DNA of 64,000 nt. Source: Occallatibacter riparius (GTDB lineage Bacteria > Acidobacteriota > Terriglobia > Terriglobales > Acidobacteriaceae). The notes beneath the pieces were generated by a model. That model ran no database searches, had not been told where the DNA came from, and saw only the letters and a list, made by a program, of their open reading frames with translations. The DNA lies in the NCBI RefSeq assembly GCF_025264625.1, contig NZ_CP093313.1, forward strand, positions 5,704,001-5,768,000. Direction: 5' to 3'. The translations under genes were made by a program, and so were the position numbers. Positions 15,598 through 30,454 of the stretch are shown piece after piece (the first letter of the stretch is position 1; the number at the start of each line of letters is the position of its first letter).

Positions 15598-15636
15598 GGG
15601 TGCCCCCGGTCCCGTGCCTTTGGGGACCGGGGACGG
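15598..15636. repeat. 39-bp palindromic repeat, intergenic copy
   Basis: Begins just after the SDR stop. Arms CCCCGGTCCC (15604-15613) and GGGACCGGGG (15623-15632) flank a 9-base loop. A second copy, identical at 35 of 39 positions by eye, lies inside uvrC at 29882-29920. No U-tract follows, so it is a dispersed palindrome rather than a typical terminator. Confidence 0.75.
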
Positions 15637-15665
15637 ATGCAGATCAACCAGCAGACCTCGGCCCA

Positions 15666-28355: not shown

Positions 28356-30392
28356 ATGGACCTCATCGAAAAAATCCGTACCCTGCCCACTCAGCCCGGC
28401 GTGTATCTCTACAAGAACGCCGAGGGCGAAGTCATCTACGTGGGCAAGGCCAAGAACCTGCGCTCGCGCGTGCGCTCCTACTTGCTTGAGGCCAGCCAGG
28501 CCAACGCCAAAACCGGCTCCCTCATGCGCGAAGCCATCGACCTCGACTACATCCTCGTCGCCAACGAGCACGAGGCGCTCGCTCTCGAAAACAATCTCAT
28601 CAAGCAGAAGAAGCCGCGCTTCAACATCCTGCTGCGCGACGACAAAACCTACCCCTACGTGAAACTCACCCTCGGCGACAAGTACCCCAAGGTCTTCGTC
28701 ACGCGCCGCCTCCGCAAAGACGGCTCGGCCTACTACGGTCCCTACTTTCCCGGCAATCTTGCCTATCGCGTAGCCGAGCTCATCCATCGCAGTTTTCTCA
28801 TTCCGAGCTGCAAGGTCGATCTCAATCGCACGCATCCGCGCGCCTGCCTCGAGTACTACATCCACCGCTGTCTCGGCCCCTGCGTCGAAGGCCTCACCAC
28901 ACCCGAGGCTTACAAAGAAGCCGTCCGCGACGCGCAGCTCTTCCTTGAAGGCAAGCAGGCCGAACTGGAGCGAGCGCTCACGCAGCGCATGATGGCCGCC
29001 GCTGAAAATGAGCAGTTTGAAGCGGCCGCGCGTCTCCGCGACCAGCTCACCACCGTGCACCAGCTTCAGGAGAAGCAGCGCATCGCCACGGCCGAGCAGG
29101 ACGATGACGCTGATGTCTTCGGCTATCACTTCGAAGGCGGATCGCTCGCGGTCAACCTCTTCCACATGCGCAACGGTAAAATCGTCGACCGCCGCGAATT
29201 CTTCTGGGAAGATCTCCCTGAGCTGATGGAGTCACTCGCACTCGAGCGCGCCACCGGCACTGAGGACGACACGAGTGAGTTGGCAGGTCCGGGCTCGGTA
29301 GGTCCGGGCTTTAGCCCGGACGCACAACCCTCCTCACAAAAGCCTGGGGCTTTAGCCCCTGAGGTAGAGTTCAACCCCGGCGCCGTCTTCTCAGCTCTCC
29401 TCAAGCAGCTATACATCGACCAGCCCTACGTCCCGCGCACAATTCTTGTCCCCGTCGACTTCCCGGATCGAGAAGCCCTCGCCACGCTCTTGGGCGAGCG
29501 TGTGAAACGCCGCATCGAGCTGGCCGTTCCCCAACGCGGCGAGAAGCGCTCTCTCGTCGATCTTGCCGGGCAGAACGCGAAGCAGTCCTACACGCAGCGC
29601 TTCCGCGTGCTCGAGCCCTCGCGCAAAGCTATTCAGGAAGCCCTCGCCGACGCGCTCATGCTGCCCGAGCTTCCCAAGCGCATCGAGTGCTTCGACATCT
29701 CGCACATTCAAGGCGCCGAAACCGTCGCGTCTCTCGTCGTCTGGGAAGACGGCAAGATGAACAAGTCCGCCTACCGAAAGTTCAAAGTAATGACGGTGCT
29801 TGGAGTGGACGATTTCGCATCCATGCGCGAAGTCGTGGCACGCCGCTACAAACGCATCCTCGAAAGCTCGTCCCAAGGTGCGGGTGCCCCCGGTCCCTCG
29901 CCTTCGGGGACCGGGGATGGCTCTCCATCCACCAACAAAGAACCGAAAACCATGCCCTCCCTCATCCTCATCGATGGCGGACTCGGCCAGCTTCACGCGG
30001 CCGCCGATGCCCTGGAGGAACTGGGCATCACAAACCAGCCCCTCGCCTCCATCGCCAAGAAAGAGGAAGTCATCTACGTACACGGCAACGAAGACGAACC
30101 CGTAGTCCTCGACCGCCGCTCGCCCGTGCTGCACCTGGTGCAGATGATCCGCGACGAGAGCCACCGCTTCGCCATCGGCTATCACCGCCAGCGCCGCGCC
30201 ATGCGCGACCGCTCCAGCGAACTGCTCGATATTCCTGGCGTCGGCGCGCTCACTCGCCAACGCCTCATCGCACACTTCGGCAGCCTGCGCGAGGTCCAGC
30301 AAGCCACCGCCGAATCCCTCGCCGCCGTAGTCCCCAAGAAAACGGCCGAATCGATCTGGCGCCATTTCCACGAGGCTCAACCCGCTAGCTAG
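28356..30392 (+). CDS. uvrC: Excinuclease ABC subunit C with in-frame repeat insertions
   Basis: 678 residues. GIY-YIG nuclease domain at ~10-90 (GVYLYKNAEGEVIYVGKAKNL), Cys motif CLEYYIHRCLGPC, UVR domain ~205-240 (QFEAAARLRDQL), RNase H-like endonuclease domain (ECFDISHIQG ... LILIDGGLGQL) and C-terminal HhH pair (LLDIPGVGALTRQRL). UvrC makes both incisions in excision repair. Two stretches interrupt the normal alignment: residues ~309-337, rich in Gly/Pro/Ser, and ~506-528 (QGAGAPGPSPSGTGDGSPST). Both are encoded by palindromic repeat DNA and fall in loops just before conserved blocks, so catalysis is probably kept. Confidence 0.96.
   Translation: MDLIEKIRTLPTQPGVYLYKNAEGEVIYVGKAKNLRSRVRSYLLEASQANAKTGSLMREAIDLDYILVANEHEALALENNLIKQKKPRFNILLRDDKTYPYVKLTLGDKYPKVFVTRRLRKDGSAYYGPYFPGNLAYRVAELIHRSFLIPSCKVDLNRTHPRACLEYYIHRCLGPCVEGLTTPEAYKEAVRDAQLFLEGKQAELERALTQRMMAAAENEQFEAAARLRDQLTTVHQLQEKQRIATAEQDDDADVFGYHFEGGSLAVNLFHMRNGKIVDRREFFWEDLPELMESLALERATGTEDDTSELAGPGSVGPGFSPDAQPSSQKPGALAPEVEFNPGAVFSALLKQLYIDQPYVPRTILVPVDFPDREALATLLGERVKRRIELAVPQRGEKRSLVDLAGQNAKQSYTQRFRVLEPSRKAIQEALADALMLPELPKRIECFDISHIQGAETVASLVVWEDGKMNKSAYRKFKVMTVLGVDDFASMREVVARRYKRILESSSQGAGAPGPSPSGTGDGSPSTNKEPKTMPSLILIDGGLGQLHAAADALEELGITNQPLASIAKKEEVIYVHGNEDEPVVLDRRSPVLHLVQMIRDESHRFAIGYHRQRRAMRDRSSELLDIPGVGALTRQRLIAHFGSLREVQQATAESLAAVVPKKTAESIWRHFHEAQPAS
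29291..29360. repeat. Palindromic repeat cluster inside uvrC
   Basis: GTCCGGGCT-TT-AGCCCGGAC (29302-29321) is a perfect palindrome with 9-bp arms. It is preceded by a direct copy of GGTCCGGGCT (29287-29296) and followed by GGGGCT-TT-AGCCCC (29346-29359). The same CTTTAG centre occurs in both hairpins, which points to one repeat family. The reading frame stays open. Confidence 0.75.
29882..29920. repeat. 39-bp palindromic repeat, copy inside uvrC
   Basis: Arms CCCCGGTCCC (29888-29897) and GGGACCGGGG (29907-29916) with loop TCGCCTTCG. Matches the intergenic copy at 15598-15636 at 35 of 39 positions and is translated as part of a Gly/Pro/Ser-rich insert. Confidence 0.78.
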
Positions 30393-30407: not shown

Positions 30408-30454
30408 GTCATTCCGAGCGGAGCGCAGCGCAGTCGAGGAATCTGCGGTTGTTC
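30408..30454 (+). repeat. Dispersed GTCATTC-type repeat, copy 2
   Basis: Starts GTCATTCCGAGCGGAGCGC and ends GAGGAATCTGCGGTTGTTC, just after uvrC. The tail ATCTGCGGTTGTTC is shared with the copy at 55697. Confidence 0.65.

Follow-up and report, generated by a model that had tools for sequence, protein, structure and literature searches.

Short REP palindromes carrying a GTAG or CGTC tag are mostly intergenic, with some lying within genes (Di Nocera 2013, PMC3733652). As described there, intragenic REPs often occur in repair or replication genes, among them those for excinuclease ABC proteins, recBCD and dnaE2, and the recB genes of two Xanthomonas species hold different REPs at approximately the same site. 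That source also regards REP insertions in loops as possibly neutral, describes repeats that flank RAYTs (REP-associated tyrosine transposases) and, among related transposases flanked by TIRs, lists an acidobacterial group. The presence of REPs inside repair genes is therefore already published (PMC3733652). REPINs, by contrast, are almost wholly extragenic, with 14 of 1,067 16-mers overlapping genes (Bertels and Rainey 2011, PMC3116915). Rickettsia palindromic elements (RPEs) are ∼100–150 bp long (PMC3767692) and are found in Rickettsia and Wolbachia, where orthologues can contain different RPE groups close together and insertion hotspots have been considered (PMC3767692, PMC10969869).

We analysed a window of 64,000 nucleotides from the genome of an acidobacterium of the Occallatibacter/Terracidiphilus group (Acidobacteriaceae), whose members live in soil; in it, two loops of UvrC are encoded by palindromic repeats. 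These inserts have in common with the REPs of Di Nocera 2013 their short palindromes, the GTAG tag (in loop 1), an occurrence in repair genes and repeats that flank RAYTs, but they occupy two loops of a single protein that are reused genus-wide by several families, and the tag in loop 2 is GGGTGCC rather than GTAG or CGTC. In the sections consulted, that paper names no Acidobacteria among the intragenic cases, and its main text mentions 'UvrABCD' but not 'uvrC' (PMC3733652). With REPINs the insert classes share the inverted arrangement of RAYT-linked REPs. The first-pass annotation had likened the inserts to RPEs, a comparison that holds insofar as both are in-frame palindromic repeats in unrelated genes; compared by description, however, the UvrC inserts are shorter (84 and ∼41 bp), lie in Acidobacteria and belong to families that adjoin RAYT genes, and their nearer kin are RAYT-tied REPs. 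Titles and abstracts of the literature searched, which mostly excludes subscription papers, held no report of repeats in acidobacterial uvrC. To our knowledge, two features are new variants: the repeated occupation of two UvrC loops by several RAYT-linked families, and a RAYT-flanking class with a GGGTGCC tag. We consider it very probable that RAYT-mobilized REP elements repeatedly colonize length-tolerant loops of UvrC.

The features of the locus, in window coordinates, are as follows.

28356–30392, + strand: uvrC, excinuclease ABC subunit C, 678 aa, complete open reading frame (TIGR00194)
29282–29366, + strand: loop-1 insert, 84-bp GTAG-tagged double-hairpin REP element, class A3, residues ∼309–337 (covariance model R2)
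29282–29296, + strand: 15-bp partial duplicate of the loop-1 element's own 5′ end, opening the insert (sequence)
29298–29301, + strand: GTAG tag at the base of hairpin 1 (sequence)
29302–29321, + strand: hairpin 1, GTCCGGGCTTTAGCCCGGAC (sequence)
29346–29359, + strand: hairpin 2, GGGGCTTTAGCCCC, followed by TGAGGTA (sequence)
about 29882–29922, + strand: loop-2 insert, ∼41-bp GGGTGCC-tagged hairpin, class R1 stem variant B, residues ∼509–523 (model R1, 51.6 bits)
29888–29916, + strand: stem-loop CCCCGGTCCC-N9-GGGACCGGGG of the loop-2 insert (sequence)
15598–15638, + strand: second window copy of the loop-2 class, outside any open frame of at least 120 aa (model R1)

The protein scores 537.7 bits against TIGR00194 (cut-off 285.45), with Pfam domains GIY-YIG at residues 14–88, UVR at 207–232, UvrC_RNaseH_dom at 432–607 and HHH_5 at 621–667. 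The Pfam UvrC_RNaseH match is split into two stretches, of which the better (340–414) follows loop 1. It had been claimed from the sequence that palindromes encode two loops of this protein and keep its frame. Both statements are borne out: the 678-aa frame is open throughout, and the peptides encoded by the inserts include LAGPGSVGPGFSPDAQPSSQKPGALAPEV and GAGAPGPSPSGTGDGSPS. An AlphaFold2 model from 26 sequences has pLDDT below 50 at residues 300–337 and 509–527, which coincide with the two inserts and are flanked by predicted helices or strands. Since the model is weak overall (pLDDT 64.7, pTM 0.37) and also falls below 50 at the conserved residues 85–181, these scores can be read only as agreeing with disorder, and the Gly/Pro/Ser-rich insert segments are probably disordered.

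The loop-1 element begins with GGTAGG, which holds the GTAG, and continues with GTCCGGGCTTTAGCCCGGAC, a 24-nt spacer, GGGGCTTTAGCCCC and TGAGGTA; a second GGGCTTTAGCCC lies at 29347–29358. GTAG at the foot of a hairpin is typical of RAYT-associated REPs, and loop 2 carries GGGTG instead; the CGTC tag is absent from both insert classes. Model R2, which describes the GTAG double hairpin and also catches related double hairpins, covers 29297–29365 with 76.9 bits, ranking third among at least 86 genome matches, the window copy being 1 of the 13 sequences used to build the model. In shuffles of the window, the 20-mer GTCCGGGCTTTAGCCCGGAC with up to three mismatches occurred 0.02 times on average, and genome-wide GGGCTTTAGCCC is present in 62 copies compared with 0 for the reversed control.

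For loop 2, the gapped palindrome CCCCGGTCCC-N9-GGGACCGGGG recurs once more in the window (15604–15632), with 0.00 matches on average in window shuffles, and it is found at 19 places genome-wide against 0 for the reversed pattern. Both window copies are among the 21 sequences behind model R1, which describes the GGGTGCC class. The loop-2 insert consists of GGGTGCC and a 10-bp stem; across the class the tag is nearly fixed and the three closing pairs are invariant. The covariation score of the stem is 0.619; shuffles give 0.201 and slid stems no more than 0.175, and 62 stem cells have two-sided changes against 20.9. Pairs with a two-sided change number 10 versus 8.2 after shuffling, a value reached in 42 of 500 shuffles, and there are 19 further pair types versus 18.2; these two of the five measures do not clearly exceed shuffles and weigh against our preferred explanation.

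At E 0.1 or better the genome (6,794,547 bp) contains at least 77 R1 and at least 86 R2 matches, counts that are lower bounds, with 150 first-look candidates scored per genome. By a codon-usage rule, 12 of 163 matches (8 of 77 R1 and 4 of 86 R2) have a clearly coding context; 66 lack a suitable open frame and 85 have an open frame with non-coding-like codon use, although 5 of 30 inspected by eye from these 85 appear genic. Most R1 and R2 copies are thus probably intergenic, as far as this crude rule can tell, and the earlier suggestion that the repeats colonize protein genes applies to a minority of copies. Rfam assigned no family to five loci at the gathering score. Matches to model R2 are biased in strand, with 10 on the plus and 29 on the minus strand in the first half of the contig and 36 and 11 in the second half (p 3.3e-6 by Fisher's test, adjacent matches being non-independent). 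We also observed that REP double hairpins (G000:C1) favour one strand per chromosome half, the switch lying near the sign change of the sampled GC skew; a DnaA match at 762,624 is distant from that switch.

UvrC matches came from 59 of 60 genomes, that of the window included, and many of the alignments are interrupted at both insert sites. We compared 108 distinct UvrC proteins picked by nearness to the window's protein, not randomly; matches too partial to span both loops and near-identical ones were left out. Segment length had a standard deviation of 21.2 aa at residues 288–340 and 20.4 aa at 500–530, compared with 0.0–7.0 aa in eleven other segments, where the larger values probably reflect truncated contigs. 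With a threshold of 34 bits, loop limits taken from the window's UvrC and a slack of 12 nt, weaker matches being excluded, the two models placed 57 copies in the loops, 0 in the other 196 kb of gene sequence and, over 406 kb of flanking DNA, 9; after removal of training copies the figures were 45, 0 and 7. Of the R1 copies, 29 fell in loop 1, 10 in loop 2, 0 elsewhere in the gene and 6 in flanking DNA (training copies being 11 of the 39 in loops and 2 of the 6 in flanks), and R2 contributed 12, 6, 0 and 3, respectively, the window's own being the one training copy among the 18 in loops. At least one R1 or R2 copy is present in 29 of the 108 uvrC genes, and 79 have none at 34 bits or better.

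These comparisons bear on whether the loops could be old native linkers that have merely turned GC-rich and palindromic. In 73 of the 108 proteins loop 1 has no recognized repeat and still measures 0–68 aa (median 24), so the loops themselves are old and tolerant of length. However, the highest-identity full-length relative, the UvrC of G008 at 88%, lacks both inserts, as the alignment proposed in the first-pass annotation brought out; the inserts align end to end to multicopy families; and a single element is read in different frames across species. Eleven outgroup UvrCs of the same order or class (loop 1 of 0–41 aa, loop 2 of 2–4 aa) have no recognized repeat in either loop, and in none of the relatives examined, these outgroups included, did we find the same peptide without palindromic DNA, the pattern that had been named as the mark of a native linker. 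Descent of the inserts from native linker is accordingly highly improbable. The multicopy and empty-site data contradict it for the two inserts, and it stands for the short loop backbone.

The loops vary in length and content. Loop 2 has at most 4 aa in 79 of the 108 proteins and at least 20 aa in 20, of which 14 contain a recognized repeat and 3 of the other 6 (L034, L040 and L051) look decayed by eye. Other species of the genus have other palindromes in the same loops, including, by motif or by eye, a CTGAGCG...GATCTGC type and a GGGATCA heptamer array. By eye, a CTGAGCTTGTCGAAGG / CCTGAGCTTGTCGAAGG-type repeat is nested in frame within R1-like (GGGTGCC-like) copies in loop 1 of L038 and L051. 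A CATTCCGAGCGGAGCGCAGCGCAGTCGAGGAATCTGC repeat lies directly 3′ of uvrC in the window (30410–30446) and by eye is an apparent relative of the CTGAGCG...GATCTGC repeat in loop 1 of other species.

An alternative source of this variety would be a few old insertions, diversified by gene conversion or recombination among REP copies together with vertical descent. Such a history would fit the uniformity of R1 in the loops (all 39 copies share an orientation, and 38 of the 39 a frame) and the existence of tandem copies, such as the four in loop 1 of L137. On a quick UvrC tree built without the loop columns, however, the minimum number of state changes is 15 in loop 1 (n = 20) and 9 in loop 2 (n = 9) for R1, and 11 in loop 1 (n = 11) and 6 in loop 2 (n = 8, motif-only cases included) for R2, gain and loss being indistinguishable. 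These 6–15 or more changes per class and loop, the different classes within the same loop and the shortness of loop 2 in most of the proteins make a few old insertions unlikely as the main explanation. Recombination between repeat copies, instead of fresh transposition, could nevertheless lie behind part of the turnover.

The reading frames indicate what was inserted. In L044 (same contig as L141) adjacent R1 copies read GAPDLDSETWD and then VPQVSILRPG, and for the double hairpin some species have the reading KGHDFSRAE and others QGTTSVVP. The second hairpin of this element yields A(L/S)AP in 18 of 18 copies, by inspection its sole stop-free sense frame. A query with RarA of the window's genome matched the UvrC of the same genome through the common repeat peptide alone (E 5.5e-5, residues 240–276). 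Judged from these sequences, the unit is DNA and not peptide.

All 57 loop copies are in sense orientation. For R2, inversion would bring stops into 17 of 18 copies, so that selection is sufficient to explain its orientation. R1 is different: inverted in place, 39 of 39 copies stay open, and all three sense frames are open in 23 of 39. A pure stop-codon filter therefore does not predict the orientation and phase of R1, and this bias counts against our preferred explanation. Y1 transposases reportedly act on the lagging-strand template (PMC6006769). We considered replication-strand bias as a cause of the sense-only R1 copies; it could be partial at most, as the R1 strand bias in the genome is weak (14 plus and 29 minus in the first half, 19 and 15 in the second, p 0.06). 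This leaves three options: a target-site phase, descent combined with conversion, or selection acting on the peptide or mRNA.

Selection of this last kind would mean that the encoded peptide or the mRNA hairpin is itself of use and that the elements have been domesticated as UvrC tags or regulators. The R1 bias beyond any stop-codon effect speaks for it, as do the three repair or recombination proteins that are hit, UvrC, UDG and RarA. Yet the 79 uvrC genes without a copy, the unrelated peptides that occupy the same loop, an antisense R1 copy in one UDG gene and hits in prmC, ileS and rsmI make domestication improbable. Similarly doubtful is the wider proposal that the UvrC loops, the UDG linker and the RarA loop are targeted or domesticated sites, where RAYTs meet single-stranded DNA during copying and a GAPG-type peptide or mRNA hairpin is kept for tuning repair; if true, it would account for the single orientation and frame of R1 in UvrC.

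The other host genes put these cases in context. In the window's genome the in-frame coding matches lie in uvrC (both classes) and in genes for a type-4 UDG, RarA, an Lhr-like helicase, an ABC-F ATPase and a PMT-like membrane protein; a multicopy hypothetical family accounts for five R1 copies in coding context. Inspection by eye added genes for a DsbD-like protein and a molybdopterin oxidoreductase, perhaps also the beginning of miaA, and a further two copies in the hypothetical family; 4 of the 9 named genes have a role in DNA repair or recombination. Among 18 genus members, 5 have an R1 copy in the UDG linker, which is sense in 4 and antisense in 1 (the copy in the window's genome being an R1 training sequence, and a UDG-like G016 match, partial or paralogous, being left out). 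The RarA loop has an R2-model match in 2 of 19 and a decayed copy in a third, the other 16 being short-looped; one of the two matches is a training copy, and a G024 RarA match, partial or paralogous, was left out. A rule that repair genes alone are hit was rejected, since prmC and ileS (G009) and rsmI (G001) are also hit. These genomes have at least 117 (G009) and at least 110 (G001) R1 matches; in the 87 places examined (72 + 15), with the uvrC loop-1 copy of G009 lying outside them, clearly coding contexts were those of uvrC, prmC and ileS in G009, which also gave a doubtful frame of 145 aa, and of rsmI in G001.

Two further observations concern these host genes. By eye, the PrmC/HemK linker encoded by the G009 prmC (L386, 3578–5002) has apparently three tandem GGGTGCC-class repeats. 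Members of a multicopy family of hypothetical proteins with the sequences VQRCVNAW... or VQHCLDAYNKA... (L067, L071, L075, L208 and L293; G000) have GGGTGCC-class repeats after a conserved N-terminal part, and several terminate in GAVGRTAGA; Pfam gave no match for L071, L075 and L115 of this family.

A probable source of mobility is encoded in the same genomes. Of 59 genomes of the genus, counting the window's, 58 have Y1 genes. The window's genome has two Y1 transposase genes, both assigned by NCBIfam to REP-associated tyrosine transposases (113.1 and 103.8 bits, cut-off 80). The RAYT at 1.72 Mb (1722618–1722917), which matches NF047646 with 103.8 bits against the cut-off of 80, has inverted GTAG double hairpins of the loop-1 class on both sides. 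At the 4.80-Mb gene, the flanking copies are in direct orientation and belong to a sister class starting GTATCAGGGG. The loop-2 class adjoins neither of the two Y1 genes in this genome. Its counterparts were found in the sister genome G002, where RAYT-type genes lie between inverted copies with two GGGTGCC stem variants.

L419, 1067–1765: RAYT-type gene between inverted GGGTGCC-class copies
L420, 1169–1823: RAYT-type gene between inverted GGGTGCC-class copies

One of the G002 genes encodes 186 aa, scores 77.9 bits, just below the cut-off of 80, and lies between inverted loop-2-class copies whose stem-loop, CCCCGGTCCCTAGCTTTTGGGGACCGGGG, also occurs in identical form in the window's genome. The second G002 RAYT (111.8 bits) lies between inverted AGGTCTC-stem copies of the loop-2 class, which suggests one transposase per GGGTGCC stem variant. 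In sum, the inserts are members of multicopy families, and both classes flank RAYT-type genes as inverted pairs.

We therefore return to colonization by RAYT-mobilized REP elements. Short REP hairpins would have been moved in trans, in single-stranded form, by IS200-like Y1 transposases (RAYTs) and would have landed in two length-tolerant loops of UvrC. Copies that preserved the frame would have survived, others being removed by selection, and the survivors would now be translated as Gly/Pro/Ser-rich segments. From the sequences we infer that the elements arrived by transposition, that selection acted against copies breaking the frame, that the inserts are translated, that UvrC has stayed active and that the cell gains no benefit.

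With copies in 29 of the 108 sampled genes, uvrC, the gene of a widely conserved repair enzyme, offers a dense natural series of selfish hairpin DNA turning into protein, which spans empty sites, inserts that are single, tandem or nested, and remnants with a decayed look. The series ties intragenic REPs to their likely transposases, and the idea raised in 2013 of an altered, non-neutral DNA repair (PMC3733652) is now testable.
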